The notes under the pieces: model-generated
The model's database searches: none
The model's input: only the letters and a program-made list of their open reading frames with translations
What the model was told of the DNA's origin: nothing
DNA from: Gelidibacter algens
Lineage (GTDB): Bacteria > Bacteroidota > Bacteroidia > Flavobacteriales > Flavobacteriaceae
DNA length: 64,000 bases
NCBI RefSeq assembly: GCF_001678675.1
Contig: NZ_LZRN01000022.1
Location: forward strand, 1 to 64,000
Direction: 5' to 3'
Position numbers and translations under genes: made by a program
Shown: positions 6,041-52,098 of the stretch, piece by piece
Layout of the letters: the number at the start of each line of letters is the position of its first letter
Numbering within the stretch: the stretch's first letter is position 1

Positions 6041-6075
6041 TTGAATATCGAATTATGAACGCTGAAAATCGAAGT
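6041..6075. repeat. period-7 array, five nnGAAnn units, upstream of paaJ
   Basis: Units TTGAATA, TCGAATT, ATGAACG, CTGAAAA and TCGAAGT in perfect 7-base register. Facing TTC-bearing sequence follows. The same unit type recurs at 9042-9076 and 10898-10925. Confidence 0.7.
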
Positions 6076-6229
6076 TTTCATTCTTGCATTCATTACAAAT
6101 TCCTGTTTTATTATTTTAAATTATTTTTTAGAATCGAACTAACTTCAGTATTCATTATTTATCAGTTCGATATTGGATATTTTTGACGTTTCGAGATCAT
6201 TTCGATGCTTCTTTCGTTCCTATTCCTAT

Positions 6230-6248
6230 CCCTTTCCAAAGGAAAGGG
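6230..6248. repeat. CCCTTTCC-AAA-GGAAAGGG hairpin, second copy
   Basis: Same 19 bases as 4550-4568, here in the intergenic space about 90 bases downstream of the zinc peptidase stop codon and upstream of paaJ. Confidence 0.7.
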
Positions 6249-6336
6249 AACTTGTTTTTAGTAAGTATTTAAATATGTTCATTTAAGTTCTGAATTCCTA
6301 CAAATTAGGAATTCCTAGGAGTTTGTAATCTTTTTA

Positions 6337-7200
6337 CTAATTCACCAGTTCCGAAAACGTATCTCCTTGTTTGATGTCTCCTGTTTTGTAACCTTTCATA
6401 AACCAATACTTGCGCTGTTCTGAAGTGCCATGCGTAAAACTATCTGGTCGCACACTGCCCTGCGTTCTTTTCTGAATGGCATCATCTCCTACCGCATTTG
6501 CAGCGCTCAAAGCTTCGTCAATATCACCTTCTTCCAAATACTCTTTATTATAATGTGCCCAAACGCCAGCATAAAAATCTGCTTGGAGCTCTTGTGCCAC
6601 AGACAGTTGATTGGCGCCTGCTTCATTGGTTTGTTGTTGAAGTTCTCTCACTTTTTGAGAAGTGCCTAGCAACGTCTGCACGTGATGGCCTATTTCGTGA
6701 GCCGTGACATATGCAATGGCGAAATCACCTCCCTTAGCACCAAATCGAGTTTTTAATTCGTCAAAAAAGGCCAAATCCATATACAGCTTTTGATCTGCAG
6801 GACAATAAAAAGGCCCGGATGCTGAGCTCGCATTTCCACAACCTGTTGAGACAGCGTCAGTAAAAAAGACCATACCAGGCTCTTCATAATCACCGAGATT
6901 ATTTTCTCTAAAAATTTGATTCCAGTTGTCTTCAGTATCCACTAAAACGGCGTTCATGAAATCGCCCATTTCTTTTTCTTGTGGCGTTAATTCTCTTTGT
7001 TGGATAGACTGGGAGCCTGATTGTGATTGCGTGACTTGCTCAATAATTGGAGCTAACTGTTGCCCAGTTTCACCACCAAAAAGTTGTAACAGTACAACTA
7101 CGACTGCTATTAGTCCGCCACCTGCAGCTAACTTGCCTTTGGAGCTCATTCCGCGACGATCCTCCATGTTATCACTTTGTCTTCTACCTTGCCATTTCAT
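6337..7200 (-). CDS. neutral zinc metallopeptidase (YpfJ family), membrane-anchored
   Basis: YpfJ/KPN_02809-family protein of 287 residues. A short basic N-terminus (MKWQGRRQSDNMEDRRG) precedes one membrane segment at about residues 22-43, then a linker rich in Gln and Ser. The catalytic HExxH is visible as TAHEIGHHVQT near residue 167, with downstream LQADFYAG supplying the likely third ligand region. The catalytic domain would face the periplasm. The substrate is unknown. It sits between paaJ and paaI on the same strand but has no known role in phenylacetate degradation, so it may be a passenger of the cluster. Confidence 0.9.
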   Translation of the reverse strand: MKWQGRRQSDNMEDRRGMSSKGKLAAGGGLIAVVVVLLQLFGGETGQQLAPIIEQVTQSQSGSQSIQQRELTPQEKEMGDFMNAVLVDTEDNWNQIFRENNLGDYEEPGMVFFTDAVSTGCGNASSASGPFYCPADQKLYMDLAFFDELKTRFGAKGGDFAIAYVTAHEIGHHVQTLLGTSQKVRELQQQTNEAGANQLSVAQELQADFYAGVWAHYNKEYLEEGDIDEALSAANAVGDDAIQKRTQGSVRPDSFTHGTSEQRKYWFMKGYKTGDIKQGDTFSELVN

Positions 7201-7273
7201 AATTAGATGAGTTGTTATTATTCGTTAATCCTAAGTTGAACATCATGTTCTTCCAAACCTAAATTTAAGTAAA

Positions 7274-7690
7274 TTATTTTTCCCAATCTTTGCTGGTTCT
7301 ATAAACCACTCCTTTAAAAAGTGCCACTAACTCATCACCTCTCTTCACTTCGATAATATTAAAGCCCAACTTATTGTTTACCTTTCCGATCACTGATTCA
7401 GCCACGATATAATCTCCTTCATTCAATGCTTCTATATGGTTGATACTTGTTTCGATTGAAACTGCGTATTTCCCATGGGTATTGGCAGCAAAACCGAATG
7501 CCGTATCCGCCAAGGCATAACTAATGCCACCGTGCGCTTTGCCCATACTGTTCAGCATTTCTTTTCTGATAGTCATGGCGACTTTGCATCTGCCTAGTTC
7601 ACATTGTAGAATTTCTATCCCTAGCCATTGGCTGTAGGCATCGAGAGAGAGCATTCTTTTAGGTATGAGGTGTGAGGCAATAGGTTTCAT
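7274..7690 (-). CDS. paaI: hotdog-fold acyl-CoA thioesterase PaaI
   Basis: A 138-residue single-domain thioesterase of the PaaI type, with the conserved helix segment NSMGKAHGGISYALADTAFG at residues of about 47-66. PaaI hydrolyses stalled or ring-hydroxylated phenylacetyl-CoA products and releases CoA, protecting the pathway. The first dozen codons overlap a period-7 tandem array (7662-7689), so residues 1-12 are probably repeat-derived. An internal start at Met13 (MLSLDAYSQWLG) is possible. It lies between the peptidase gene and the remnant of a four-helix-bundle gene. Confidence 0.9.
   Translation of the reverse strand: MKPIASHLIPKRMLSLDAYSQWLGIEILQCELGRCKVAMTIRKEMLNSMGKAHGGISYALADTAFGFAANTHGKYAVSIETSINHIEALNEGDYIVAESVIGKVNNKLGFNIIEVKRGDELVALFKGVVYRTSKDWEK
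7662..7689. repeat. period-7 array overlapping the paaI start
   Basis: Units GGTATGA, GGTGTGA, GGCAATA and GGTTTCA. The last contains the start codon complement, so the array encodes the first residues of the annotated PaaI. Confidence 0.6.
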
Positions 7691-7703
7691 CCGTTCTTAA
7701 AAA

Positions 7704-7838
7704 TTATTTATTTATTCTTTTGACAATTATTGCACGTAAAGTTGTTATCATTTTAGACCATTCAGTTATCAATCTTCTGTTTTCTTCATCTTCTTCTGCC
7801 GTTATATAATTTCTCAAATTTGAAATGATACTTAAACT
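7704..7838 (-). pseudogene. 3' remnant of a four-helix-bundle (S23/IVP-like) gene
   Basis: Read on the minus strand, this space encodes about 40 residues, including ISNLRNYITAEEDEENRR, then a helix ending AIIVKRINK and a TAA at 7704. That matches the C-terminal helix of four-helix-bundle proteins such as the intact genes at 9094-9462 and 11790-12140. There is no start codon or N-terminal half; a stop lies just upstream in frame. It is bordered by period-7 arrays on both sides (7662-7689 and 7840-7867). Confidence 0.55.
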
Positions 7839-7839
7839 T

Positions 7840-7867
7840 CCTCATACCTCAAACCTCATACCTTTCC
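7840..7867. repeat. period-7 array overlapping the paaH stop codon
   Basis: Units CCTCATA, CCTCAAA, CCTCATA and CCTTTCC. They form the last codons and stop of paaH (protein end GMRFEV). Confidence 0.6.
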
Positions 7868-9041
7868 CATTCATTCTTCTCAACAACGGACTACAACGGT
7901 ACCTGTCTTCATGATATTCGTTATATAATGCATCCATATTTGAAACACACCAATCGATGCCCTTTTCATCAGCCCAAGCCAACAATCCTTTCGGATAGTT
8001 GACGCCCTTGGTCATTGCTTTGTCAATGTCTTTCGCTGAAGCAATATTCCAGAATAGAGCATCTGCAGCTTCGTTGATGAGCATAACGAGGACACGGTCG
8101 AATATTTGTTGGGCTAATTCAGACTCCTCTCCCGAAACTTCGGGAGCGTTTTGAGGGACATTAGAAATTTGTGGAACAATTGAGCCGTTCTCATCATAAT
8201 TGTAATAGCCCTTTCCTGATTTTCTTCCAAGATAACCTGCTTCAGCAAAACGTTTTTGAGTGAACGCTGGTTTGTATCTTGGATCGAAATAAAAGGCTGC
8301 AAATACGGTTTCAGTTACGGTGTAATTCACATCGTTTCCAATAAAATCCATCAATTCAAAAGGCCCCATCCTGAAACCTCCCAAAGTTTTCATGCTTCTA
8401 TCAATGGTTTCAAAATCAGCAATCCCTTCTTCATAAATCCTCAAAGCCTCACTATAAAAAGGTCTTGCCACACGGTTGACAATAAACCCAGGAGTATCTT
8501 TAGCAATTGCTACAGTTTTTTTCCAATCTGAAATAATTTTAACCGACTTGTCCAAAACTTCTTTTGAAGTTTGAATAGCCGGAATAACCTCAACCAACTG
8601 CATCAATGGTGCTGGATTGAAGAAATGAATTCCGATACAACGTTCTGGTTTTTGTAATGATGCCGCAATAGATGCGATAGACAAACTTGATGTGTTTGAA
8701 GCGATAATGCATTCATCACTTACATAACTTTCCAATTCTGAAAAGACTTTCTTTTTTATTTCTAAATTCTCAACAATTGCCTCAATAGTGAGGTCAGAAT
8801 CTGATAAATCTTTTAAACTATCACTGTAAGAAATATTGGTTTGGATTCTGTTTTTCTCTGCAGAATCAATTCTACCTTTTTCAACCAACCGGGCGAGAAT
8901 TTTTTCCAAAGCTGATTTTGCTTTGTCCAATGCCGCTTGATTGGTATCGTATAATTTCACTTTACAGCCAGAAGTTGCCGCAACTTGTGCGATGCCGCTT
9001 CCCATGGTGCCTGAACCGATGATTCCTACTTTATTAATCAT
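7842..9041 (-). CDS. paaH: 3-hydroxyacyl-CoA dehydrogenase PaaH
   Basis: NAD-dependent oxidation of 3-hydroxyadipyl-CoA to 3-oxoadipyl-CoA. The Rossmann motif GIIGSGTMGSGIAQVAA starts at residue 6. The catalytic dyad regions are GIHFFNPAPLM (His) and KDTPGFIVNRV (NAD-domain/C-domain junction), and a C-terminal dimer domain follows. The protein is 399 residues; the E. coli protein is longer (475) with a fuller second C-terminal domain. A mini-hairpin (8129-8146) lies in frame in the linker around APEVSGEE, and the last six codons belong to a heptamer array, so repeats have intruded twice into this gene. Confidence 0.92.
   Translation of the reverse strand: MINKVGIIGSGTMGSGIAQVAATSGCKVKLYDTNQAALDKAKSALEKILARLVEKGRIDSAEKNRIQTNISYSDSLKDLSDSDLTIEAIVENLEIKKKVFSELESYVSDECIIASNTSSLSIASIAASLQKPERCIGIHFFNPAPLMQLVEVIPAIQTSKEVLDKSVKIISDWKKTVAIAKDTPGFIVNRVARPFYSEALRIYEEGIADFETIDRSMKTLGGFRMGPFELMDFIGNDVNYTVTETVFAAFYFDPRYKPAFTQKRFAEAGYLGRKSGKGYYNYDENGSIVPQISNVPQNAPEVSGEESELAQQIFDRVLVMLINEAADALFWNIASAKDIDKAMTKGVNYPKGLLAWADEKGIDWCVSNMDALYNEYHEDRYRCSPLLRRMNGKGMRFEV
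8129..8146. repeat. CTCCCGAA/TTCGGGAG mini-hairpin inside paaH
   Basis: Perfect 8-bp arms with a 2-base loop. It is read in frame as PEVSG in the interdomain linker of PaaH, where an insertion is likely to be tolerated. Confidence 0.55.
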
Positions 9042-9076
9042 GAATATCGAATTTTGAATACTGAATATCGAAGTGT
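9042..9076. repeat. period-7 array upstream of paaH
   Basis: Units GAATATC, GAATTTT, GAATACT, GAATATC and GAAGTGT in exact register, directly 5' of the paaH start. It forms the downstream border of the four-helix-bundle gene at 9094-9462. Confidence 0.75.
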
Positions 9077-9093
9077 AATGCCGTCAATTTATT

Positions 9094-9462
9094 TTAATTT
9101 TTACTGTTATTTTGAGATGTTCGAATACTTGAAACAAAAATCGCAATTAGCTCATTATTTTCTTTCATTATAATCTCTAAACGTTCTATATTTTTAATTA
9201 AATCTGCTCCTTTCTGAATCTTAAGATTCACTAAGGATTCTCTCAGTTCCTTTAGACACAACTTCATTTTATGAAGAAAATCTCTTGCCGACTCCGCACT
9301 TTGAGCTTCCCCGTAATTCAATGCAGCCGACGTGGCTGAACGAATTAATTGTTTTGATAAATGTTGTGAGGCAAAACTACCATCAATTTTTCCACAAATT
9401 AAAATAACATCTACTGCAAACTGAATCAAACGTTCTTCTAAATCAAATTTATAATTTGCCAT
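9094..9462 (-). CDS. four-helix-bundle protein (23S rRNA IVP / S23-like)
   Basis: A 122-residue all-helical protein. It has the family hallmarks FDLEERLIQFAVDVI, then QLIRSATSAALNYGEAQSA near residue 38, then KMKLCLKELRESL near residue 65. Relatives include proteins encoded in 23S rRNA intervening sequences and the Avd accessory protein of diversity-generating retroelements, so nucleic-acid association is plausible; the function of stand-alone copies is unknown. It separates paaH and paaG on the same strand, is clearly homologous to the protein at 11790-12140, and is flanked on both sides by 7-base-period repeats (9042-9076 and about 9468-9502). Confidence 0.85.
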   Translation of the reverse strand: MANYKFDLEERLIQFAVDVILICGKIDGSFASQHLSKQLIRSATSAALNYGEAQSAESARDFLHKMKLCLKELRESLVNLKIQKGADLIKNIERLEIIMKENNELIAIFVSSIRTSQNNSKN

Positions 9463-9467
9463 TTAAA

Positions 9468-9502
9468 ACTTCATTATTCGTTATTAATCAGTTCTTTATT
9501 CG
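9468..9502. repeat. TTC-type period-7 units upstream of the four-helix-bundle gene
   Basis: TTC trinucleotides at 9470, 9477, 9492 and 9499 are spaced 7, 15 and 7 bases, a slightly broken heptamer register. It faces the GAA-type array at 9042-9076 across the gene. Confidence 0.45.
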
Positions 9503-9506
9503 AGAT

Positions 9507-10286
9507 TTATAAACCTTTAAACTCCGGCTTTCTCTTTTCCATAAAGGCTAAAACTCCTTCGGCATAATCTTCGGTTTGGGCTGCTTCAATTTGTAGTTTG
9601 GATTCTAAAGCTAATTGAGATTCTAAATCATTGGTCATTGATTTATTGAATAACTCTTTGATCATTCCTAAGGCTTTGGTTGGCATATTGGCCAATTTTA
9701 TTGCGAGTTTATTCACTTCTTCATCAAAGTTTTCAAAAGGAATCACCTTATAAATCATTCCCATACGTTCTGCCTCTTCAGCAGCTATTTTATCGCCTAA
9801 CATTGCTAAAGCTGATGCTTTTTGAAAACCGATCAATCTTGGTAAAAAGAAGGTTCCACCGCTATCCGGAATCAAACCAATCAGACTAAACGCTTGAATG
9901 AAATTAACGTGTTCGTGAGCGACCACAATATCACAAGCTAAGGCAATATTTGCCCCAGCACCTGCGGCTACGCCGTTAATGGCGCCAATGATTGGTTTTT
10001 TAATAGAACGAATTCTGGTAATTATTGGATTATAATGCTCCTCAAGAATTTTTTTGAATCCTGGATTGAGATCAGAGGATGTGACTTCTTTCAAGTCTTG
10101 ACCAGCACAAAATGCTTTTCCATTTCCTGAAAGCACAATTGCTCTTACGGCATCATCTTTTTCACAAGCATCTAAAGTATCTTGAAGTAAAAATGCCATT
10201 TCGCGATTGAAACTATTAAAGACCTCGGGCCTATTAAGGGTGATATAGGCTACACCATTTTTATTTTCTAATAGAATAGAACTCAT
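9507..10286 (-). CDS. paaG: 1,2-epoxyphenylacetyl-CoA isomerase PaaG
   Basis: Converts ring-1,2-epoxyphenylacetyl-CoA to oxepin-CoA, the step between epoxidation and ring opening. It is a 259-residue crotonase. The oxyanion-hole segment is GKAFCAGQDLKEV near residue 57. The first hydratase Glu is absent (GAGANIALACD). The Asp expected in PaaG-type isomerases is present in LIPDSGGTFFLPR near residue 137. This residue pattern supports isomerase over hydratase. The gene lies between a four-helix-bundle gene and a five-unit GATTGTT array. Confidence 0.92.
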   Translation of the reverse strand: MSSILLENKNGVAYITLNRPEVFNSFNREMAFLLQDTLDACEKDDAVRAIVLSGNGKAFCAGQDLKEVTSSDLNPGFKKILEEHYNPIITRIRSIKKPIIGAINGVAAGAGANIALACDIVVAHEHVNFIQAFSLIGLIPDSGGTFFLPRLIGFQKASALAMLGDKIAAEEAERMGMIYKVIPFENFDEEVNKLAIKLANMPTKALGMIKELFNKSMTNDLESQLALESKLQIEAAQTEDYAEGVLAFMEKRKPEFKGL

Positions 10287-10300
10287 TTTATCTTATTTTT

Positions 10301-10335
10301 GATTGTTGATTGTTGATTGTTGATTGTTGATTGTT
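10301..10335. repeat. five perfect GATTGTT heptamers
   Basis: Five identical 7-base units followed by GAAGTAT, in the paaG-paaD junction. It is a clean heptamer microsatellite. Confidence 0.85.
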
Positions 10336-10388
10336 GAAGTATCTCGCTTCTGAAATCAAAAATCATTATTCTGCAATTGTTAATCCTT

Positions 10389-10889: not shown

Positions 10890-10897
10890 AATTAATA

Positions 10898-10990
10898 GCG
10901 AATATCAAATGCTGAATATCGAAGTATAAAGTTTGAGATTTTTAGTTAAATCATGATTCGTTATTCAAACTTCAATATTCATGATTCTTT
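10898..10990. repeat. paired period-7 arrays in the paaD-paaC junction
   Basis: Left arm GCGAATA, TCAAATG, CTGAATA, TCGAAGT (10898-10925). Right arm has TTC at 10957, 10964, 10971, 10978 and 10985, exactly 7 apart. The two arms carry complementary cores (GAA and TTC), so the junction is an inverted pair of heptamer arrays that ends at the paaC stop codon. Confidence 0.7.
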
Positions 10991-11742: not shown

Positions 11743-11750
11743 TTTATAAA

Positions 11751-11773
11751 TTGAAGTTGAAGTTGAATTTGAA
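11751..11773. repeat. TTGAAG hexamer array upstream of paaC
   Basis: GAA cores at 11753, 11759, 11765 and 11771, a 6-base period rather than the 7 seen elsewhere. It borders the four-helix-bundle gene at 11790. Confidence 0.55.
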
Positions 11774-11789
11774 ATCAGGTTGAGTTTTC

Positions 11790-12140
11790 CTATTTAATAT
11801 TTTTAATACTTGTAACTATTATGCGAATCAGTTGATCATTTTCATCTTTTAGTGTCATCAAACTATCATCAGAAAATAATCTTGCTTTTGTTTGGATATT
11901 AAAGTTTCTGTGACATTCCCTTAATTCTTTTAAACAAATTCTCAATTTATTAATTTTATCCTTATCGGTTCCAGCACCTAAAACTTCTCCATAATTTAAA
12001 GCTGATGAACAAGAAGACCGAATGAGCTGTTTCGCTAAATAATCTCCCGCATATGACAATGGTTTTTTGTCATAGAGCAAAATGATTTCTGCAGCAAAGT
12101 CTTCTAAACGATCTGATAGATCAAATTTCTTCTCAATCAT
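11790..12140 (-). CDS. four-helix-bundle protein (S23/IVP-like), second copy
   Basis: A 116-residue helical protein with the same landmarks as 9094-9462: FDLSDRLEDFAAEIILLYDK, LAKQLIRSSCSSALNYGEVL and KLRICLKELRECHRNFNIQ. By eye the two share roughly 40% of aligned residues, so they are separate insertions or old duplicates rather than a recent copy. It splits paaC from paaB, which are normally adjacent, and is on the operon strand. Short-period repeats lie on both sides. Function is unknown. Confidence 0.85.
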   Translation of the reverse strand: MIEKKFDLSDRLEDFAAEIILLYDKKPLSYAGDYLAKQLIRSSCSSALNYGEVLGAGTDKDKINKLRICLKELRECHRNFNIQTKARLFSDDSLMTLKDENDQLIRIIVTSIKNIK

Positions 12141-12181
12141 GTTTCAGATTTAAACTTCAAATTGAGTTTCAATTTCTTTTG

Positions 12182-12472
12182 TCACATATATTTCACCTCA
12201 TCAGGCAACTCGTAAAACGTTGGATGACGGTATACTTTATCTTGTGCTGGTTCAAAAAGTTCGCCATTATGTTCGGGATTTGATGCGGTAATGTTCTTGG
12301 ATTCCACCACCCAAATACTCACACCTTCATTACGTCGCGTATAAACGTCCCGTGCATTTTCCATGGCCATTTCTGAATCTGCGGCGTGCAGACTTCCAAA
12401 ATGACGATGCTCCAATCCGTTTTTACTTCTGACGAAAACCTCCCAGAGAGGCCAGTTTTTTTTATTAGACAT
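12182..12472 (-). CDS. paaB: PaaB, phenylacetyl-CoA epoxidase subunit
   Basis: A 96-residue subunit with the family start WPLWEVFVRSKNGLEHRHFG near residue 7, then DARDVYTRRNEGVSIWVVES and the C-terminal HPTFYELPDEVKYM. PaaB bridges the reductase PaaE and the PaaAC core. The gene directly follows paaA, separated only by a period-7 array. Confidence 0.95.
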   Translation of the reverse strand: MSNKKNWPLWEVFVRSKNGLEHRHFGSLHAADSEMAMENARDVYTRRNEGVSIWVVESKNITASNPEHNGELFEPAQDKVYRHPTFYELPDEVKYM

Positions 12473-12536
12473 AAGACATTAGATTTTAGATTTTAGACTT
12501 CAGGACGCTTATCTAACGTCTCATATCTCAAGTCTA
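12467..12536. repeat. ten-unit inverted period-7 array, paaB-paaA junction
   Basis: Units AGACATA, AGACATT, AGATTTT, AGATTTT, AGACTTC, AGGACGC, then TTATCTA, ACGTCTC, ATATCTC, AAGTCTA. The AGA-type half is followed by a TCT-type half, in continuous 7-base register, so the array is self-complementary overall. It overlaps the first two codons of paaB. Confidence 0.7.
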
Positions 12537-12545
12537 TTTTCTACA

Positions 12546-24300: not shown

Positions 24301-24447
24301 CTTCCAGCTTCAGTCTTCAGTCTTCAGTCTTCAGTCTTCAGTCTTCAGTCTTCAGTCTTCAGTCTTCAGTCTTCAGTCTTTAGTCTTTAGTCTTCATGCT
24401 TCATGCTTCAAACTCCATGCTTCATGCTTCAAACTTCACCCTTAATC
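24301..24447. repeat. 21-unit heptamer array (CTTCAGT type) ending at a stop codon
   Basis: 147 bases in unbroken 7-base register. CTTCCAG is followed by ten CTTCAGT, then two CTTTAGT, then CTTCATG, CTTCAAA, CTCCATG, CTTCACC and CTTAATC variants. The last base abuts the stop codon of the polyprenyl synthetase gene at 24448. The homogeneous left half and degenerating right half suggest recent expansion at one end. Confidence 0.95.
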
Positions 24448-25425
24448 CTACTTCTTCCGATCGATAACGTAATTGACCATAAGCAACAAAGACGCTTTAA
24501 ATTCAGATTCTGGATACGTATTGAGAAGTTGTAATGCCTCCTCTTGAAAAGCAATCATTTTAGAAACTGCATAATCGAGTCCGCCTTTATTTTTCACAAA
24601 AGCAATGACTTCTTTGACGCGCTTTTTATCTTTATTATGATTTTTGACCGAATTGATCAGCCAAGATTTTTCCTTTTTCGAGCAATTATTGACGGCGTAG
24701 ATAAGCGGTAAGGTCATTTTTCGTTCCTTGATATCGATGCCTGTTGGTTTCCCGATGGCTTCGTTTCCATAATCGAACAAGTCGTCCTTAATTTGAAAAG
24801 CCATTCCTATGAGTTCTCCAAATTTCCGCATGGCTTCCACATCAGGAGAATTGGGCTTTACTGAAGCAGCACCAAGGCTGCAACACGCAGCAATTAGCGT
24901 TGCCGTTTTTTGACGAATAATCTCGTAGTAAATAGCTTCCGTGATGTCCAGCTGACGGGCTTTTTCTATTTGAAGCAGTTCGCCTTCGCTCATTTCCCTA
25001 ACCGCTACGGAAATAATCTTAAGCAAATCAAAATCATTGTTATCAATAGAAAGCAAGAGACCTTTTGAGAGCAGGTAATCGCCAATAAGAACGGCAATTT
25101 TATTTTTCCACAAAGCATTAATGGAGAAAAACCCACGCCTCCTGTTACTGTCATCAACCACATCATCATGCATCAATGTGGCCGTATGGATCAATTCAAT
25201 TACCGCAGCACCTCTATAAGTACGCTCGCTAACATTGCCGTTATTGACCATTTTAGCCACCAAAAACACAAACATAGGCCGCATTTGCTTGCCTTTTCTG
25301 TTAACGATGTAAGTTGTAATCCTATTTAAAAGCGCCACTTTTGAAGACATGGAAAGTAGAAACTTTTGTTCAAAAAGTTCCATTTCATAAGCTATGGGCT
25401 GCTTTATTTGTTCAACGATTTTCAA
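24448..25425 (-). CDS. polyprenyl diphosphate synthase
   Basis: Chain-elongating prenyltransferase of 325 residues making the long isoprenoid tail of menaquinone. The first aspartate-rich motif is LMHDDVVDDSNRRRG near residue 91 (DDxxD) and the second QIKDDLFDYGNEAIGKP near residue 218. The chain length cannot be read directly. The start codon is TTG (MKIVEQIKQ). Its stop is flush with a 21-unit heptamer array. Confidence 0.92.
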   Translation of the reverse strand: MKIVEQIKQPIAYEMELFEQKFLLSMSSKVALLNRITTYIVNRKGKQMRPMFVFLVAKMVNNGNVSERTYRGAAVIELIHTATLMHDDVVDDSNRRRGFFSINALWKNKIAVLIGDYLLSKGLLLSIDNNDFDLLKIISVAVREMSEGELLQIEKARQLDITEAIYYEIIRQKTATLIAACCSLGAASVKPNSPDVEAMRKFGELIGMAFQIKDDLFDYGNEAIGKPTGIDIKERKMTLPLIYAVNNCSKKEKSWLINSVKNHNKDKKRVKEVIAFVKNKGGLDYAVSKMIAFQEEALQLLNTYPESEFKASLLLMVNYVIDRKK

Positions 25426-37644: not shown

Positions 37645-38919
37645 TTATTGGGTTATTTTAAAACCGAGAGTTTTAAGGTCTTCCCAAAATGTAGGATAGG
37701 ATTTGGAGACTACCATGGCATCTTCAATTTGAAGGTTTGTTTTTAAAGCTAACGGTGCAAACGCCATGGCCATCCGGTGATCATGATATGTGCTGATGGC
37801 CTCTCCTGTATCCTCCCCTAACCCCTCCGAAGGAGGGGAACTTACGTCTGCAATGAAAAGTTTGTGAGGTTTCAGGGTTAAACTGTTTTCCGTGATGTGC
37901 AGGTCTGCTCCTAGTTTTTCTAGTTCTGTTTTTAAGGCAACGAGCCTGTCGGTTTCTTTGATTTTGAGCGTATGCAAACCAGTGAGATGGCAGCCTACAC
38001 CCAATCCAAAACAGGTGACGGCGATGGTTTGTGCTATATCTGGAGCGTTTTGAAGTTGGCAGTTGACCGTCTGCAGTTGGCAGTCAGCTTGCTTTGTAAG
38101 GGTGATTGCATTGTTGTTGAATAGTGTAGCCACGCCAAAATCAGTATAAATGTCAGCCAACACTGAATCGCCTTGTAAGCTATCTCTTTTGTAGGAGGAC
38201 AGGGTGATTTCAGTTCCGATAGGACTTAAGGCTACGATGCTATAAAAATACGATGCCGAGGACCAATCACTTTCTACTGTAAGGATATCTTGATGTGTGT
38301 TCAGCTTTTTTAGCGGACTTACCTTTATTGTATTACCCTCAAAACTAGTCTTTACACCAATTTGATTAAGCAAATCCAAAGTCATATTGATGTAAGGAAC
38401 AGAGGTGATTTCTCCTTCCAAAGACAATTCCAAACCATTTTTTAATTTTGGGGCAATCAACAGAAGGGCTGAAATATACTGGCTGCTCACATTGGCCTTG
38501 AGAGCTACTTGGTCTTTTGACAGCAATTCGCCCTTGATTAACAATGGCGGACAACCTTCCGACTCGAGATAAGAAATATCAGCGCCTAACATATTCAGCG
38601 CTTCTACCAAAACTTGTACTGGGCGTTCTTTCATTCGAGCTGAACCTGTAATAGTAATTTCTCTTCCCGTTTGAGTAGCGAAAAAAGCCGTTAAAAACCG
38701 CATGGCAGTACCCGCATGGGATACGTCAATAAGGTTGGAGGTCGATTTCAATGCTTTTTGCATCACCTCAGAATCGTCAGAATTGGAGATGTTTTCAATC
38801 TGCAATTCTGGATAAAGCGCTTGCAAAAGCAACAATCTATTGGACTCACTCTTGGAACCCGTGATGACAATTTTAGGAATATTTTCTGAGAGAGAGGATT
38901 TGTGGAGCGTTAACAACAT
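37645..38919 (-). CDS. aroA: 3-phosphoshikimate 1-carboxyvinyltransferase (EPSP synthase) with two repeat-derived insertions
   Basis: Shikimate-pathway enzyme joining PEP to shikimate-3-phosphate. 424 residues, with GSKSESNRLLLLQALYPEL near residue 22, SHAGTAMRFLTAFFA near 66 and the C-terminal TYHDHRMAMAFAPLALKT. Two loops are encoded by intergenic-type repeats in frame. Residues around DCQLQTVNCQLQNAP come from a period-7 array (38055-38089). Residues around DVSSPPSEGLGEDTGEA come from a CCCCTCC hairpin element (37822-37838 and flanks). The motifs for substrate binding look intact. Confidence 0.94.
   Translation of the reverse strand: MLLTLHKSSLSENIPKIVITGSKSESNRLLLLQALYPELQIENISNSDDSEVMQKALKSTSNLIDVSHAGTAMRFLTAFFATQTGREITITGSARMKERPVQVLVEALNMLGADISYLESEGCPPLLIKGELLSKDQVALKANVSSQYISALLLIAPKLKNGLELSLEGEITSVPYINMTLDLLNQIGVKTSFEGNTIKVSPLKKLNTHQDILTVESDWSSASYFYSIVALSPIGTEITLSSYKRDSLQGDSVLADIYTDFGVATLFNNNAITLTKQADCQLQTVNCQLQNAPDIAQTIAVTCFGLGVGCHLTGLHTLKIKETDRLVALKTELEKLGADLHITENSLTLKPHKLFIADVSSPPSEGLGEDTGEAISTYHDHRMAMAFAPLALKTNLQIEDAMVVSKSYPTFWEDLKTLGFKITQ
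37822..37838. repeat. CCCCTCC-GAA-GGAGGGG hairpin inside aroA
   Basis: Perfect 7-bp arms. The flanking CTCCCCTAACCC and GGGGAACTT match the style of intergenic hairpins at 4550, 6230 and 61997. It is translated in frame as part of an insertion just before the conserved TYHDHRMAM motif of AroA. Confidence 0.75.
38055..38089. repeat. period-7 array inside aroA
   Basis: Units GTTGGCA, GTTGACC, GTCTGCA, GTTGGCA and GTCAGCT. Three heptamers are 21 bases, so the array keeps the frame and encodes the repetitive peptide CQLQTVNCQLQ. Confidence 0.8.
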
Positions 38920-43992: not shown

Positions 43993-44090
43993 ATGAAGGA
44001 TGACGGATGACCGATGACGGATGACCGATGACTGAAGACTGCCGACTGCCGACTGAAGACTGCCGACTGCCGACTGAAGACTGAAGACTC
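43993..44090. repeat. 14-unit heptamer array at the rsgA stop codon
   Basis: Units ATGAAGG, ATGACGG, ATGACCG, ATGACGG, ATGACCG, ATGACTG, AAGACTG, CCGACTG, CCGACTG, AAGACTG, CCGACTG, CCGACTG, AAGACTG, AAGACTC in one register. Higher-order order is visible (CCG, CCG, AAG repeated as a 21-base unit). It ends in the rsgA stop codon. Confidence 0.92.
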
Positions 44091-45036: not shown

Positions 45037-45119
45037 TGATTGAATTTAATTAACAAAATAACGATTTTTAAGTCGAGAATATGTATAACTTAGATGTAAA
45101 ATTTTCAAAAATTAACAAC

Positions 45120-45572: not shown

Positions 45573-45585
45573 AAAATATGTCTGT

Positions 45586-45640: not shown

Positions 45641-45669
45641 TGTGACATAAATCTTATTTAAGACTCATA

Positions 45670-46752: not shown

Positions 46753-46823
46753 TGTATTCTTGATTATAATTTTTTATTTTTTATTAAGAAAAAAGATCAT
46801 AGAAGACATACTTCACAAATAAA

Positions 46824-46886
46824 TTTGCTCTTTGCTCTTTGCTCTTTGCTCTTTGCTCTTTGCTCTTTCTTCTTTGTTCTTTGTTC
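46824..46886. repeat. nine-unit heptamer array (TTTGCTC type)
   Basis: Six perfect TTTGCTC units, then TTTCTTC, TTTGTTC, TTTGTTC. It sits between the DAHP synthase start and the tyrA stop. Confidence 0.9.
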
Positions 46887-46908
46887 TCTTTTCTGTTTCC
46901 AAGATTTA

Positions 46909-46924
46909 CCCCGATACTTAGGGG
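46909..46924. repeat. CCCC-GATACTTA-GGGG mini-hairpin
   Basis: Short stem of the C/G-rich mini-hairpin group, shortly after the heptamer array in the same intergenic space. Confidence 0.4.
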
Positions 46925-46995
46925 CTAAATCCAAACTTTAAGATTGTATTCCACCACTACTGGAATTTGGTGCTTTACATTTTTGGTGTTTAAAG

Positions 46996-47847
46996 TTATT
47001 GTATGCCGTTTAAAATTTCTTTTATATGATTGGTGTTTTTCATTTCTGAATAAATAGCATCAAAATCATCGTCATGCATTAACGCTCTAAACTTTGTGAG
47101 GTTGTTGATGTATTCATCCAATGTTTCAAGCACATTGGCTTTATTCTGTTTAAAAATTGGTGTCCACATTTCTGGGGAACTTTTTGCCAAACGAACCGTT
47201 GAAGCAAATCCACTACCTGCCATATCAAAAATATCGCGTTCGTTTCGTTCTTTGTCAATCACTGTTTTTCCCAACATAAAAGCACTGATGTGCGACAAAT
47301 GTGAGACATACGCAATATGCTTATCGTGCGCATCAGGATTCATATAGCGGATGCGCATGCCCATATCAGTAAACAATTTAAGTGCTTTTTCCTGGAGCTT
47401 AAAGGCTGTTTTTTCAACTTCACAAATGATGTTGGTCTTATCTTGATACAATCCTAAAATGGCGGCTTTTGGTCCTGAGAATTCGGTTCCCGCAATTGGA
47501 TGAGCTGCTAAAAAGTTACGGCGTTTAGGATGTTGATCTATGGCTTTGCAAATCTCCGCTTTGGTAGATCCGACATCAAAAACTAGGGCATCGTCTGAAA
47601 TCAAATCCAATACTTTTACAATTTCATTGACTGCTGCATCTACCGGAATGGACAAAACTACCAAATCAGCGTTCTTTAAGTCCTCATAGGTAGCTTTAGC
47701 ATCAATAACATTTAACTGAATGGCTTCCTCCAAATGTGCGTCATTATGATCAATTCCGAACACTTTTGATTTATGGTGGTGTTTTTTAAGATCAAGAGCC
47801 AAACTACCGCCTATCAATCCAACCCCTATGATGTATATATTTTTCAT
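46996..47847 (-). CDS. tyrA: prephenate dehydrogenase TyrA
   Basis: Tyrosine branch: NAD-dependent oxidative decarboxylation of prephenate. From MKNIYIIGVGLIGGSLAL (Rossmann GxGxxG), with FDVGSTKAEICKAI, LAAHPIAGTEFSGP and HIAYVSHLSHISAFML further on. The open frame can extend to a TTG at 47865, but the ATG at 47847 places the nucleotide motif at the usual distance. A CTTCCC-AAA-GGGAAG hairpin lies about 24 bases upstream. Middle gene of the aromatic operon. Confidence 0.93.
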   Translation of the reverse strand: MKNIYIIGVGLIGGSLALDLKKHHHKSKVFGIDHNDAHLEEAIQLNVIDAKATYEDLKNADLVVLSIPVDAAVNEIVKVLDLISDDALVFDVGSTKAEICKAIDQHPKRRNFLAAHPIAGTEFSGPKAAILGLYQDKTNIICEVEKTAFKLQEKALKLFTDMGMRIRYMNPDAHDKHIAYVSHLSHISAFMLGKTVIDKERNERDIFDMAGSGFASTVRLAKSSPEMWTPIFKQNKANVLETLDEYINNLTKFRALMHDDDFDAIYSEMKNTNHIKEILNGIQ

Positions 47848-47870
47848 TCCCATTTGTCTTTTCAAGACCT

Positions 47871-47885
47871 CTTCCCAAAGGGAAG
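47871..47885. repeat. CTTCCC-AAA-GGGAAG hairpin, tyrA leader
   Basis: Perfect 6-bp arms with an AAA loop, of the same type as 4550-4568, between the aminotransferase stop and the tyrA start. Confidence 0.55.
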
Positions 47886-47907
47886 AATTAGTTCTTTTTA
47901 TATAATA

Positions 47908-49053
47908 TTATTTCACTCTTGCAATCGCCTCTTCCAATTCATCAACCGTGGCGCACAGTGAAAACCTAATATAGCCTTCGCCATTACTTCCAAAAATAGT
48001 CCCAGGAGCGATAAAAATTGAATGCTCCTTCAAGATCATATCAATATACTTTTCAGCTTTCATGAAGGGCGGCAATTTTGCCCACACAAACAATCCGGTC
48101 GCAGATTTGTCATAAGAGCAGTTTAAGGCGGTCGCCAATTCCCATACTTTCTGACGGCGTTCTTCATAAACACTGTTCAGACTAATGAACCACATTTTTG
48201 AACATTTTAAGGCTTCAATAGCCCCTTTTTGAATGCCGTAAAACATGCCAGAATCCATATTGCTTTTCACTTTCAAAATGGCATCAATATATTCTGATTT
48301 GCCCAAGACCATGCCCACTCGCCAACCTGCCATATTAAAGGTTTTACTCAAAGAGTTAAGTTCCAAACAAACATCTTTGGCCCCTTTATATTTTAAGATG
48401 CTTCGCGGATACTCGTTCAACACAAAACTGTACGGATTATCATTGACCACCAAAATATGGTGACGTTTTGCAAAGGCAATAATATCTTCAAAAACCTTAT
48501 TGCTTGCCGTGGCTCCCGTTGGCATATGCGGATAGCTGATCCACATGAGTTTCACTTTTGACAAATCGCTTTTTTCCAAAACCATAAGGTCAGGACACCA
48601 ATCGTTTTCAGCTACCAAATCGTAAAAAACAGGTTTCGCTCCTACAAGTTTGGTTACTGATTCATAAGTGGGATAGCCAGGGTTCGGGATCAATACCTCA
48701 TCTCCTTCATTCAAGAATGCCATAGAGATGTGCATGATGCCTTCCTTACTGCCCATTAACGGCAAAACCTCAGTTAGCGGACTTAACGACACCCCAAAAT
48801 GCTCTTTATAAAAACCAACCATGGCTTCCCTCAGCTCGGGCAAGCCTTGATAGCTTTGATATTTATGGGCTACAGCATCTTTCATACTTTCATTGAGGGC
48901 TTCAATAACGCTTGCCGGTGGCTCTAAATCTGGACTTCCAATTCCCAAATTGATTATTGGCTTCCCCTGGGCTTTGAGCAAGTTAACTTCCCTCAATTTT
49001 TTCGAGAAGTAGTACTCTTCAACAGTATTTAATCGATTTGCAAAGGTGATCAT
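47908..49053 (-). CDS. class I/II PLP-dependent aminotransferase
   Basis: 381 residues. PLP-fold landmarks are LPLMGSKEGIMHISMAFL, LIPNPGYPTYESV near residue 130, the PLP-binding Lys in LNSLSKTFNMAGWRVGM near residue 235, and the substrate Arg region GYIRFSLC near 363. Placed between pheA and tyrA, it most likely transaminates phenylpyruvate and hydroxyphenylpyruvate (or prephenate) to Phe and Tyr. Its start overlaps the pheA stop by 4 bases. Confidence 0.9.
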   Translation of the reverse strand: MITFANRLNTVEEYYFSKKLREVNLLKAQGKPIINLGIGSPDLEPPASVIEALNESMKDAVAHKYQSYQGLPELREAMVGFYKEHFGVSLSPLTEVLPLMGSKEGIMHISMAFLNEGDEVLIPNPGYPTYESVTKLVGAKPVFYDLVAENDWCPDLMVLEKSDLSKVKLMWISYPHMPTGATASNKVFEDIIAFAKRHHILVVNDNPYSFVLNEYPRSILKYKGAKDVCLELNSLSKTFNMAGWRVGMVLGKSEYIDAILKVKSNMDSGMFYGIQKGAIEALKCSKMWFISLNSVYEERRQKVWELATALNCSYDKSATGLFVWAKLPPFMKAEKYIDMILKEHSIFIAPGTIFGSNGEGYIRFSLCATVDELEEAIARVK

Positions 49054-49877
49054 TGTCGTGCATTTTTATATTCGCCCAAAACCTTAAAGTCTTGTGCCAT
49101 AATGGTCATTATTGATTTTGCCTTTTGATAATCTTGATAGGCCTCAAAAGTAACATCTACAAAAAAGGCGTACTTCCAGGGCGTTTCTATTTTTGGTAGC
49201 GACTGAATTTTGGTAAGGTTCAATTTACAGTCGCTCATCACATTTAAGATAGACGCTAGACTGCCCCGTTTATGGTCCAGTTCAAATTTTAAGGAGGCTT
49301 TGTTGATCTTGACCTCATCAACTTCAGAGTTGGAAGTTTTTGCAATCACAAAGCGGGTTTCATTATGTTTGATGGTTTGGATGCTTTCTGCAATAATTTC
49401 CAGTTCAAACAATTCAGAAGCCAAACGGCTTGCAACAGCGGCGACATTTTTAAGCTTTTTTTGTTGGATGCGTTGTGCTACCTCAGCCGTATCTTTGTCT
49501 TCTACCAACTTAATGTGTGGATGTTTCTTGAAAAACTCCTTACACTGCAACAGCGCCATCGGGTGAGAATACACCTCGTGGATGTCTTCAATAGATTGTC
49601 CTTGAAGGCCCATTAAATGGTGCTGAATATCCAAGTAGTGTTCTCCAATAATGTGCAGGTGATTGTCGTCTATCAATGCGTAATTAGGAATGATGGACCC
49701 CGCAATTGAATTTTCGATCGCCATGATCACAGCGTCGGTTTTATTGCTCAGCACGCTCTGGACAGCACCGTCAAAGGTCATGCACTCATCGAGTGTTACA
49801 GCATCTTCAAAATATTGTAAGGCAACAATATGATGAAATGATCCTTTAATTCCTTGTATAGCAACCGATTTTATCAT
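49050..49877 (-). CDS. pheA: prephenate dehydratase PheA
   Basis: Phenylalanine branch: prephenate to phenylpyruvate. 275 residues: catalytic domain with IQGIKGSFHHIVA at the start and IMAIENSIAGSIIPNYALI near residue 50, TRFVIAK near 150, and a C-terminal ACT regulatory domain (FELDHKRGSLASILNVMSDC, KIETPWKYAFFVDVTFE) for feedback by Phe. First structural gene after the attenuator at 50034-50162. Confidence 0.94.
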   Translation of the reverse strand: MIKSVAIQGIKGSFHHIVALQYFEDAVTLDECMTFDGAVQSVLSNKTDAVIMAIENSIAGSIIPNYALIDDNHLHIIGEHYLDIQHHLMGLQGQSIEDIHEVYSHPMALLQCKEFFKKHPHIKLVEDKDTAEVAQRIQQKKLKNVAAVASRLASELFELEIIAESIQTIKHNETRFVIAKTSNSEVDEVKINKASLKFELDHKRGSLASILNVMSDCKLNLTKIQSLPKIETPWKYAFFVDVTFEAYQDYQKAKSIMTIMAQDFKVLGEYKNARQ

Positions 49878-50033
49878 TTTTTATTTTAAGTTTTCTGCTT
49901 AAAAAGCTTGATTCTAAATACTCCTATTTTTGCTAATAGCTTTTTCTTGATCCTGCCGAAAGGCGCGATTAGTTCAACTAGTTTATTTTATTGCGTTCTT
50001 CGATACTTATAAAACGAACGTTTCAATAACAAA

Positions 50034-50060
50034 AAAAGTCCCGATTTTCATCGAGACTTT
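50034..50060 (-). terminator. attenuator terminator upstream of pheA
   Basis: On the minus strand: 11-bp stem AAAGTCTCGAT / ATCGGGACTTT with a GAAA loop and one G-U pair, followed by seven T. It lies 25 bases after the leader peptide stop and about 155 bases before pheA. The leader sequence CGAGACTT (within the GAC GAG ACT TCG codons, 50095-50104) is complementary to the 5' arm AAGTCTCG, giving a competing antiterminator. Confidence 0.88.
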
Positions 50061-50084
50061 TATATTAAATTTATGGTTAATAAA

Positions 50085-50162
50085 TTACACATACGAAGTC
50101 TCGTCCCCTTTGCTAAAAAAGAAATAAAACCAGTTTTGATATGATGTAATTATTGTTTTCAT
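50085..50162 (-). CDS. Phe/Tyr-rich leader peptide of the aromatic amino acid operon
   Basis: 25 residues: begins MKTIITSYQN, then the control run WFYFFF, then SKGDETSYV and TAA. It contains four Phe, three Tyr and one Trp. When charged tRNA-Phe or tRNA-Tyr is short, a ribosome would stall in the control run and leave the downstream GAGACTT free to block the terminator. When supply is ample, the ribosome reaches the stop, covers that segment and the terminator forms. This is classical ribosome-mediated attenuation; leader, antiterminator and terminator are all visible in the sequence. Confidence 0.85.
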   Translation of the reverse strand: MKTIITSYQNWFYFFFSKGDETSYV

Positions 50163-50174
50163 TATTTGATGTCG

Positions 50175-50203
50175 CTAAAGTAATTAATAAATTGAATAAA
50201 CAA
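50175..50203 (-). promoter_or_regulatory. promoter of the pheA leader transcript
   Basis: TTG at 50201-50203, then 18 bases, then TACTTTAG at 50175-50182, one mismatch from the Bacteroidota TTG / TAnnTTTG promoter. The transcript would begin within about 10 bases of the leader ATG. Confidence 0.5.
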
Positions 50204-50267
50204 AACCTTTTTTAAACTCTTTTTGATATACAACGATTTCGCAAAGTATCCTATATCTAAAAATGCG

Positions 50268-50275
50268 TATTTTTG
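50268..50275 (+). promoter_or_regulatory. TATTTTTG, -7-like element of gldA
   Basis: Exact TAnnTTTG match 17 bases before the gldA ATG. A TTG -33 partner is not evident. Confidence 0.4.
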
Positions 50276-50292
50276 AACAAATTTAGCAATCT

Positions 50293-51186
50293 ATGTCTAT
50301 TGAAGTCAATCATCTTACCAAATTATACGGCAATCAAAAAGCGCTCAACAATATCTCCTTTAAAATTGACAAAGGTGAAATTGTGGGATTTTTAGGGCCA
50401 AACGGCGCTGGGAAATCGACGATGATGAAAATATTGACCACCTATATTGACGCCACTGAAGGGGAAGCCAAAGTAAATGACTTTGATGTTCAAAAAAATG
50501 CACGCGATGTTCAAAAACGCGTTGGATATTTGCCTGAACACAATCCGCTGTATTTGGACATGTACGTAAAGGAATATTTGACATTCAATGCCAATGTTTA
50601 CAAGATTGACAAGGACCGCATTAGCGACGTGATCACCCTAACAGGATTAACTTTGGAAGCTCACAAAAAAATTGGTCAACTCTCAAAAGGGTATCGTCAG
50701 CGTGTTGGATTGGCGAGTGCTTTATTGCACGACCCAGAAGTGTTGATTTTGGATGAGCCAACAACAGGATTGGATCCCAATCAGTTGGTTGAGATTAGAC
50801 AGTTGATCAAATCTCTTGGAAAAGAAAAGACGGTGTTCTTATCCACGCACATCATGCAAGAAGTGGAGGCTATTTGTGACCGTGTTATTATCATCAATAA
50901 CGGTGAAATTGTCGCCGATAAAAAGCTAACGGAATTAAAAGCAGACCAGCAACAAATTATTGAAGTGGAGTTTGACTATCGTGTTGAGAATGTTTTACTC
51001 AATCGTTTAAAGCATGTGCAAAGCGTTAAAAATACCCACGACTTTATATACGAATTAACCTTCTCAACCAAAGCAGACATGCGTGCCTCAGTATTTGATT
51101 TTGCACATGATAATGGCTTGAAGATTTTACAACTGAACCAAAAGAACAAAAACTTGGAAAGCTTATTCAGGGAGCTGACGTTATAG
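50293..51186 (+). CDS. gldA: gliding motility ABC transporter ATPase GldA
   Basis: 297 residues with a Walker A GPNGAGKSTMMKIL near residue 37, signature LSKGYRQRVGLA near 135, Walker B VLILDEPTTGLDPNQ near 152 and switch His in STHIMQEVE. GldA partners with GldF/GldG in flavobacterial gliding; these partners are not in the window. The C-terminal part resembles other GldA proteins (LKILQLNQKNKNLESLFREL). The stop codon is the first base of a heptamer array. Confidence 0.92.
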   Translation: MSIEVNHLTKLYGNQKALNNISFKIDKGEIVGFLGPNGAGKSTMMKILTTYIDATEGEAKVNDFDVQKNARDVQKRVGYLPEHNPLYLDMYVKEYLTFNANVYKIDKDRISDVITLTGLTLEAHKKIGQLSKGYRQRVGLASALLHDPEVLILDEPTTGLDPNQLVEIRQLIKSLGKEKTVFLSTHIMQEVEAICDRVIIINNGEIVADKKLTELKADQQQIIEVEFDYRVENVLLNRLKHVQSVKNTHDFIYELTFSTKADMRASVFDFAHDNGLKILQLNQKNKNLESLFRELTL

Positions 51187-51226
51187 TCAGCAGTCTTCAG
51201 TCAGCAGGCTTCAGGCTTCGGGCTTC
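51185..51226. repeat. heptamer array at the gldA stop codon
   Basis: Units AGTCAGC, AGTCTTC, AGTCAGC, AGGCTTC, AGGCTTC and GGGCTTC, starting inside the TAG stop codon. Confidence 0.8.
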
Positions 51227-51276
51227 CTATCTTCTTATAAGTCATAATAGGGCAAGCAGTTGGCAGTGTTAAATAA

Positions 51277-52026
51277 TCACTCAAAAATCAAATGTCCTGT
51301 ATAATACGCCTGCACATCAATAATTGGAGGTTTATTGACTACAATAACGTTACCAGTGCTTCTGATTTCTCCAGTTAAAGATGCCTGCGGATTGACGATC
51401 ATATCATTACTGCTGCGCTGAAAAATCCTGATATTTTGTGCAATGAGGTTCCGGCCTTCAAAGCGGGAATCTCCAGAATAAAAACCAATGACCAAATTTT
51501 CAACAGTTCCGCTCAAATACATATGAGATAAGTTGTTATTGATCACATTTAAGTTGGAACAATTGACTTCCATTCTGAAATCACCGTCAGTATGGTATTG
51601 ATCTGCTGCTTCAAAATCTTCAGAGACCAAAGTCAAAACAGGATAGTTTAAAACCCCATCACTCAACACAGGCAGCCCCGTGCTCGATCGGATCTCCGTA
51701 ATGTTAGGTGCGCTCACATAAATTTTAGTAATTCCATAATCTCTAGTGATATTACACCCATTGTTATTTCTTAAAACAAGCTGATCGTTTTCAACGTTGA
51801 TCTTAATATCATCTATCAAGTACTCCCCCGTTTCAACAACAATTTTTTGCTCGGGTCCTTCTTTGAGGATCAGCTGCACCCTTTCAAAAACAATGATTTT
51901 ACTGAAGGCAGGAACGGTAATTTCCTTCCGAATAATATCCCCAGAATTCTGAAAACAATCTGGCATCACCTTGGCATTACAGGAAAGTAATACGATTGCT
52001 CCAATGATGTATAGGTACTTTTTCAT
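51277..52026 (-). CDS. head-GIN domain (DUF2807) lipoprotein
   Basis: 249 residues with a lipobox (VLLSCNAK, Cys16). A beta-helical DUF2807 domain follows (FSKIIVFERVQLILKEGPEQ near residue 41, LNVINNNLSHMYLSGTVENL near residue 153). The C-terminal ITGEIRSTGNVIVVNKPPII is typical. The family is probably an adhesive or structural surface module. It is on the opposite strand to gldA. Confidence 0.85.
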   Translation of the reverse strand: MKKYLYIIGAIVLLSCNAKVMPDCFQNSGDIIRKEITVPAFSKIIVFERVQLILKEGPEQKIVVETGEYLIDDIKINVENDQLVLRNNNGCNITRDYGITKIYVSAPNITEIRSSTGLPVLSDGVLNYPVLTLVSEDFEAADQYHTDGDFRMEVNCSNLNVINNNLSHMYLSGTVENLVIGFYSGDSRFEGRNLIAQNIRIFQRSSNDMIVNPQASLTGEIRSTGNVIVVNKPPIIDVQAYYTGHLIFE

Positions 52027-52057
52027 GTTTAATTTTTCCGACTATTATTTATGCATC

Positions 52058-52098
52058 CAACTTCAGGCCTCCAACTTCCAACTTCAAGCTTCAATCTA
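52058..52098. repeat. heptamer array ending at a stop codon
   Basis: Units CAACTTC, AGGCCTC, CAACTTC, CAACTTC, AAGCTTC and a truncated AATCTA in register. It directly abuts the stop of the acyloxyacyl-hydrolase-like gene. Confidence 0.75.

Follow-up and report, generated by a model that had tools for sequence, protein, structure and literature searches.

Intervening sequences (IVSs) of 23S rRNA are the closest described systems to the elements treated here. In Coxiella, for example, terminal inverted repeats form the stem of a hairpin, an S23p/IVP gene occupies its loop, and the IVS is excised by RNase III, as outlined in PMC4990558. Heptamer repeats have been described separately: TAACTGA arrays are recorded in Beggiatoaceae, cyanobacteria and five Bacteroidetes, where they precede start codons and one reversed set follows a stop codon (PMC4679880), and GGGNATC heptamers in Xanthomonas and Nostoc. 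These G-rich heptamers are found in sense behind stop codons and in antisense before start codons, some as inverted pairs, and the portions of that paper at hand report no association with mobile elements (PMC4692102). The DNA analyzed here, hereafter the window, is a stretch of 64 kb from Gelidibacter algens (positions 1 to 64,000 of contig NZ_LZRN01000022.1, assembly GCF_001678675.1), which carries both heptamer arrays and genes of the S23/IVP family. The RsgA protein encoded in it has its best named matches, at 94% each, in G. sediminis and an uncultured Gelidibacter. An earlier note on the arrays knew of no described mechanism; this is true of their cause, while heptamer arrays as such were already published (in part PMC4679880 and PMC4692102). 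Heptamer arrays, IVSs and S23/IVP proteins are known separately, and what is new is their link: among open-licence PMC papers, none was found that joins heptamer arrays to four-helix/S23 genes, a report elsewhere being possible. For decades heptamer repeats have lacked a cause, and 23S rRNA IVSs a function. If both are one hairpin element, the two questions merge into a testable one, namely whether the protein acts on heptad hairpins and whether the elements move.

On balance we consider it likely that the arrays are arms of hairpin elements located in gaps between genes and present as complete, gene-less and single-arm copies. A complete element would consist of a left arm of heptads sharing one G, usually within AG on the sense strand, a gene for a four-helix-bundle protein, and a right arm of complementary heptads. 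The gene in the loop would belong to PF05635/TIGR02436, the family encoded by the IVSs of 23S rRNA. In the gene-less version the two arms would enclose a short loop, and many further copies would be single, orphan arms. Such elements resemble 23S rRNA IVSs in having the same protein family in a hairpin loop, in sporadic occurrence and in decaying genes (described in part in PMC4990558), and the one rRNA copy examined, from Azospirillum, also has a heptad stem. Unlike IVSs, they are located in gaps between protein genes and not in rRNA, their arms are heptad arrays, often extended, and gene-less and single-arm copies are common. With the published heptamers they share period 7, head-to-tail order and a mainly intergenic location, and the published arrangement is as expected of arms; the difference is that those heptamers are tied to no gene in what PMC4679880 and PMC4692102 set out. 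The TAACTGA and G-rich descriptions, as far as these sources go, fit the arm model without naming it. Inverted repeats, gene-less beside gene-bearing copies and presence or absence between sisters also recall miniature inverted-repeat transposable elements and other transposon derivatives, from which the present elements differ in having no transposase and no fixed arm sequence.

Complementarity of the arms was assessed by aligning the 5′ flank of a four-helix gene to the reverse complement of its 3′ flank, with 400 mismatched flank pairs as the null. In nine Gelidibacter genomes 69 genes were tested, which are 70 of the 73 over the cut-off minus one duplicate; the other three were either not retrieved or located at the end of a retrieved sequence. 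The median pairing score was 30, against 18 for mismatched pairs; 50 of the 69 genes scored above the 95% level of the null and 18 above the 99% level. Genes of comparable size that were likewise flanked by gaps served as controls; 14 of these 123 exceeded their own 95% level, and two of the 11 controls scoring at least 26 are themselves four-helix genes. The paired arms are periodic, with an identity of 0.513 at lag 7 and 0.469 at lag 14, against 0.26–0.30 at other lags. In-frame stops are found in 13 of the 73 genes. Pairing of arms was also compared between members of one species and members of different species; the outcome is biased by the choice of arms and is not used as proof.

In the paa operon of eight further Gelidibacter genomes, arrays that share a gap frequently form inverted repeats, which meet at GAAGT...ACTTC and enclose either a member of the 23S_rRNA_IVP / four helix bundle gene family or a short loop, and gene-less inverted versions occupy the same operon gaps. 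On our reading, both arms in a gap, where present, are of one unit type per genome, and the type varies between genomes: before paaD, for example, the units are GAAT-type in three genomes, GATT-type in four and neither in two. At two paa gaps (L190 and L187), a different palindrome (AACCTGCAAGGTTTT...AAAACCTTGTAGGTT) is found where sister genomes have heptad hairpins.

The arrangement is not restricted to the genus. Matches to PF05635 above the cut-off were obtained for 60 of 80 genomes of the family and for 87 of 118 Bacteroidota genomes, the latter counted with the own genus, at up to 16 copies each. Among the 60 best-scoring loci, 30 from the family and 30 from the phylum, 12 and 19, respectively, passed the pairing test (31/60). 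Arm identity in the family and phylum loci was 0.552 and 0.469 at lag 7, 0.539 and 0.460 at lag 14, and 0.25–0.34 at other lags, and the units vary from element to element while both arms of an element match. When the left arms of 32 Bacteroidota loci were pooled, a single strong position appeared, G in 86% preceded by A in 70%, with 2.37 bits of information against 0.5–0.7 after shuffling within arms; 50 Gelidibacter arms gave 1.81 bits against the same 0.5–0.7. The “TTC or GAA core” of the earlier note is probably one arm type read from two strands, with the common G, usually after A, as what the left arms share.

One such four-helix protein matched 32 plasmid records, mostly cyanobacterial, including nine from Nostoc and four from Calothrix. 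Of these, 16 were examined, 15 cyanobacterial and one from Azospirillum. The cyanobacterial loci passed the pairing test in 11 of 15 cases, with a lag-7 identity of 0.626, a similarly high value at lag 14 and 0.25–0.34 at the remaining lags; four of the 15 are not independent, because they carry similar genes. In Nostoc edaphicum, TAGGGAG heptads surround a four-helix gene between two ribonucleotide reductase genes, and in Pseudanabaena a locus with TTAGCTT heptads is located between cas6 and cas4. The STRR heptamers of Calothrix were reportedly described by Mazel in 1990. Four-helix genes inside CRISPR operons were seen on three cyanobacterial plasmids (L310, L320 and L324), at cas6/cas4 and cmr2/cmr3. 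An Rfam scan of 15 loci found large subunit (LSU) rRNA at the Azospirillum locus alone and none in the 14 others, nine of them from the G. algens genome. The Azospirillum gene is located in LSU rRNA like a classical IVS, and its stem has an identity of 0.66 at lag 7 and 0.77 at lag 14, in this one case. With slightly more doubt than trust, it may be proposed that hairpin elements with heptad arms and an S23/Avd-like gene are, across phyla, the common source of the cyanobacterial, Beggiatoaceae, Xanthomonas and Bacteroidota heptamers, and that 23S rRNA IVSs are members that landed in rRNA, the stem being renewable and able to change its sequence without losing pairing. If true, many operon genes annotated as “four helix bundle protein” would be inserted elements, including those between cas or ribonucleotide reductase genes.

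The period itself was examined in 864 kb of the G. algens genome, in 41 stretches including the window, at a score of at least 14; the stretches come from contigs in which CAGT arrays had been seen beforehand, so that the density is perhaps raised. Intergenic arrays numbered 38 for period 7, 11 for period 6, three for period 9, one for period 10 and none for periods 4, 5, 8 and 11, and shuffled controls stayed near zero, with at most 0.67 arrays per replicate. The preference for period 7 noticed in the earlier note is borne out, other periods being far from equally common, and chance does not explain the pattern. Period 6 is a real second class. Seven of the 38 arrays are located in the window, at about three times the density of the remaining 800 kb, and only three period-7 arrays were coding. 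In two relatives, 400 kb each, there were 13 and 18 arrays of period 7 against eight and two of period 6, and nine loci from Gelidibacter and its nearest kin (189 kb) gave 30 against six. Seventy-one loci of other Flavobacteriaceae showed a small intergenic excess (six arrays of period 7, five of period 8) and 15 more period-7 arrays in coding open reading frames (ORFs), mostly in one gene matching aroA. For the 14 intervals of the window in which the earlier note had seen a perfect 7-base register, lag 7 was indeed the best of lags 4–13 in all 14; “perfect” is too strong a word, identities ranging from 10/21 (10898) to 28/28 (10301). Shuffles of each interval gave P values of 0.000–0.007 for 13 of them and 0.032 for 10898–10925, which are flattered because the intervals were chosen by eye. 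Eleven are intergenic as claimed; the remaining three, 7662–7689 in a thioesterase ORF, 7840–7867 over the end of the paaH ORF and 38055–38089 in aroA, are in or over coding sequence. A general process that creates or copies heptamers, such as genome-wide templated mutation in 7-nt steps by transient misalignment, is rejected for Gelidibacter, because coding DNA outside arrays has no lag-7 excess (0.2584 against a base of 0.2586); coding DNA of other Flavobacteriaceae has a slight one (z 2.2).

The units recur in families. Among the consensus units of the 38 arrays, 75 pairs are within one mismatch, where 22 are expected (maximum 32 in 100 scrambles). One relative (G001) has 10 such pairs against 3.9 expected (maximum 8), and in another (G008) eight pairs against 4.1 expected (maximum 9) are not significant. 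The CAGTYKN family has 64 (overlapping) matches in the whole G. algens genome, against three for the reversed pattern, and is present in all nine Gelidibacter genomes and in three of 30 other sampled genera. The dominant units, CAGTCTT/CAGTTGG and others, are not a published heptamer, TAACTGA itself being uncounted. It had been noted that unit sequences differ: period 7 does extend beyond any single unit, while the recurrence of families qualifies the statement. A single transposing repeat of fixed sequence, which had been argued against on this ground, is likewise rejected, since the unit families differ. Contrary to the earlier note, the arrays are not all independent, as unit families recur and many arrays are inverted, complementary pairs around a four-helix gene or a short loop.

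The arrays are found directly behind stop codons more often than placement by chance allows, as the earlier note had suspected. Thirty-six of 91 stop flanks are within 7 nt of an array (null 9.1 ± 2.2, or 21.9 ± 2.2 with a 50-nt keep-out zone at starts), and 13 of 87 start flanks (null 8.6). For the G. algens genome alone, 14 of 35 stop flanks are so placed (null 3.8, or 7.3 ± 1.7 with a 30-nt keep-out zone). TAG accounts for 18 of the 36 stops beside arrays against 229 of 1251 overall (Fisher P 2.3e-5, orthologues counted apart), and for six of 14 in the G. algens genome alone (P 0.03). In the whole set, orthologues included, the left type prevails 35:11 near stops and stands at 9:19 near starts (Fisher P 2.6e-4). 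Relatives are nearly without a gap at several array sites. The RsgA–Dtd gap is 90–163 nt in eight named Gelidibacter against 0–12 nt in L009 and L013–L019, and is variable in further genera, in some over 300 nt. The AroA gap is 154–505 nt in seven named Gelidibacter, of which one (L005) has no array there, against 4–6 nt in L009, L013, L014 and L016. The gldA–DUF2807 gap is 90 nt in the window and 3–6 nt in seven of eight named Gelidibacter.

Presence and absence were seen between the sister genomes G004 and G006, which are apparently those of loci L004 and L005, whose rsgA genes are 95% identical. At one site (L212), the gap measures 660 nt in G006, where it contains a four-helix gene and paired arms (score 40), and 12 nt in G004, the flanking genes aligning at 85 and 80%. 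At another (L214), the gap measures 1,461 nt in G004, where it contains a four-helix gene and several arms, and 305 nt in G006. In a third pair, the difference is an indel of 148 nt that includes part of a four-helix gene.

By analogy with rRNA IVSs, the transcribed arms would base-pair within the operon transcript, the gene forming the loop, and RNase III could cut the element out, so that its insertion between operon genes would be tolerated. Since each arm is built of units complementary to those of the other, whole units could be gained or lost without abolishing pairing, and unit number and sequence could therefore turn over. Movement and RNA processing of the elements are what we infer. 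PF05635 resembles Avd, the accessory protein of diversity-generating retroelements (in the account of PMC10053308), and it may be speculated that the four-helix protein, as a relative of Avd, helps the element spread. RVT_1 is over the cut-off in eight of nine Gelidibacter genomes; G004 has none, despite eight four-helix matches, by per-genome counts alone and with no search for linkage. In G005, twelve RVT_1 matches are distributed on several contigs, which suggests a multi-copy retroelement, because seven of them have identical scores.

The window holds two four-helix genes, both on the minus strand in the paa operon and both of the S23/IVP family (PF05635 and TIGR02436), as in IVSs; for complementary termini, a further feature of IVSs, one of the two passes the pairing test. 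Gene 1 (23S_rRNA_IVP, 122 aa, 9094–9462) matches PF05635 with E 3.3e-10 and TIGR02436 with E 2.5e-20, and its nearest solved chain is 2rld. Its left arm (9463–9506, minus) consists of GAATnnn heptads with the end GAAGTTT (lag-7 identity 0.54), and its right arm (9042–9093, minus) includes array 9042–9076 (18/28 at lag 7) and ends at the paaH start codon. Gene 2 (116 aa, 11790–12140) is located between paaB and paaC and matches PF05635 with 41.1 bits and TIGR02436 with E 1.2e-19. It is flanked by a left arm at 12141–12181 (minus; identity 0.60 at lag 6 and 0.44 at lag 7) and a right arm at 11743–11789 (minus; 0.61 at lag 6).

Four gene-less hairpins are also found on the minus strand. In the first, the right arm 6041–6075 (15/28 at lag 7), 8 nt before a thiolase start, aligns to a left arm at 6141–6182 that has a weak period-7 segment (6144–6181); the best inverted repeat of this gap scores 26, against at most 23 in 40 shuffles. 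The hairpin at 10287–10388 has the right arm 10301–10335, with AACAATC five times in sense (RNA fold z −3.1; inverted repeat 20, shuffles up to 21). That at 10890–10989 (RNA fold z −2.6; inverted repeat 21, shuffles up to 22) has its left arm, 10957–10989, directly behind the paaC stop and its right arm, 10898–10925, before the paaD start. The hairpin between paaA and paaB, 12464–12545, has TAGAnnn and TCTAnnn arms (RNA fold of 12473–12545, z −3.6; inverted repeat 20, shuffles up to 20).

Several observations weigh against taking the arrays as arms of hairpin elements. Taken one by one, the window hairpins are weak: the arms of element 1 score 24, just under the null 95% level of 25, those of element 2 exceed it with 28 and are of period 6, not 7, and three of the four gene-less hairpins fail to beat the best of 40 shuffles. 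The pairing test is failed by 19 of the 69 Gelidibacter genes, 29 of the 60 loci of other Bacteroidota and four of the 15 cyanobacterial plasmid loci. The L214 site in G006 is not empty, since it keeps facing arms without the gene, and therefore gain cannot be told from loss there. The strand bias shrinks to 20:7 near stops and 8:10 near starts without the named loci. Finally, 54 of the 60 strong arrays (score at least 14) have no inverted partner above the null 95% level within 600 nt. Because only six have one where three are expected, we no more than infer that single arrays are orphan arms, a reading adopted because they have period, unit families, position and the whole-set strand bias in common with arms. 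The whole G. algens genome has 10 four-helix genes, whereas one fifth of it already holds 38 arrays, and gene-less copies therefore prevail.

The same predominance of single arrays would suit plain microsatellites, in which local seeds expand by polymerase slippage in 7-nt steps and four-helix genes merely happen to lie in the same gaps. The footprint idea behind such slippage is credited to Mrazek 2007 in PMC4679880, which also ranks heptamers first among the long repeats of many bacteria, and between L004 and L005 the arrays behind rsgA differ by two whole units (14 nt), a difference between close strains that the earlier note had proposed to look for. Slippage does not, however, predict complementary arms around one gene family, shared unit families or abutment on stops beyond chance placement, nor does it sit well with coding DNA that lacks a lag-7 excess, and we regard it as unlikely.

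Rather less probable still is that the heptads are binding sites of an oligomeric protein, which might regulate translation or be ParB-like, as with the heptads of pSM19035, with selection keeping the spacing. One conserved G per heptad with the remaining positions free would suit such sites, the arrays behind rsgA outlive alignable flanking sequence, and heptad-binding proteins are known (among those treated in PMC9499535); yet the arms remain complementary even though unit sequences vary greatly from one element to another, and the neighbouring genes have no evident common function. Binding would be compatible with hairpin elements if the four-helix protein were the binder. The arrays might also be thought to supply a stop codon in each of the three frames downstream of genes, seeing that 7 is not a multiple of 3 and that arrays abut stops. 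This function is very improbable and is rejected, because stop triplets show no strand preference (in sense units of 35 of 75 arrays, in antisense units of 31 of 75).

Further single arrays are distributed over the window. A long one, 24301–24449 (minus; ACTGAAG in sense, score 104), is located directly behind the stop of a polyprenyl synthetase gene and has no partner above the null. Array 43993–44089 (minus; CAGTCTT/CAGTCGG in sense) directly follows the rsgA stop, where most named Gelidibacter also have an array of this family. Array 46824–46898 (minus; GAGCAAA in sense, score 56) is located between prephenate dehydrogenase and DAHP synthase genes, 51185–51226 (plus) in the 90-nt gap between the convergent gldA and DUF2807 genes, and 52058–52098 (minus) behind a PagL-like gene, in a gap of 72 nt here against 9–10 nt in L004–L007.

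In aroA, the heptad stretch 38055–38089 (minus; 17/28 at lag 7) encodes a protein loop. Heptad stretches such as AATCGTC were seen in coding sequence at three AroA loops in different genera, with loop length changed little or not at all; the loci include L021, L022, L029, L035, L060 and L072 besides the window.

One array outside the window (L117:4-719 on G000:C16) covers 716 nt with about 102 heptads of GAATAAC type. The 6 kb next to it contain more arrays, of heptamers as well as of hexamers, together with modules of a composite repeat (CGTCATTGCGAG..., CCTGCC...GGCGGG); this composite interspersed repeat was rejected as the source of the arrays, its matches being mostly inside that region. 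One four-helix gene with long CAGT/ACTG arrays on its flanks has a Flavo-1 RNA (Rfam RF01705, L226:51-123) at a distance of about 1.4 kb. The period-6 class (TTGAAn; window 11748–11773, L108, L117, L131, L142 and L163) is recurrent in the genus and also forms arms around some four-helix genes; hexamer arrays share gaps with the heptamers and do not abut stop codons (three of 25 stop flanks, null 1.8). Arrays of a ten-base unit, CTTTGTGnnn, with a fixed core and a variable spacer, are found at 54626–54667 of the window and at two further loci (L129 and L136).

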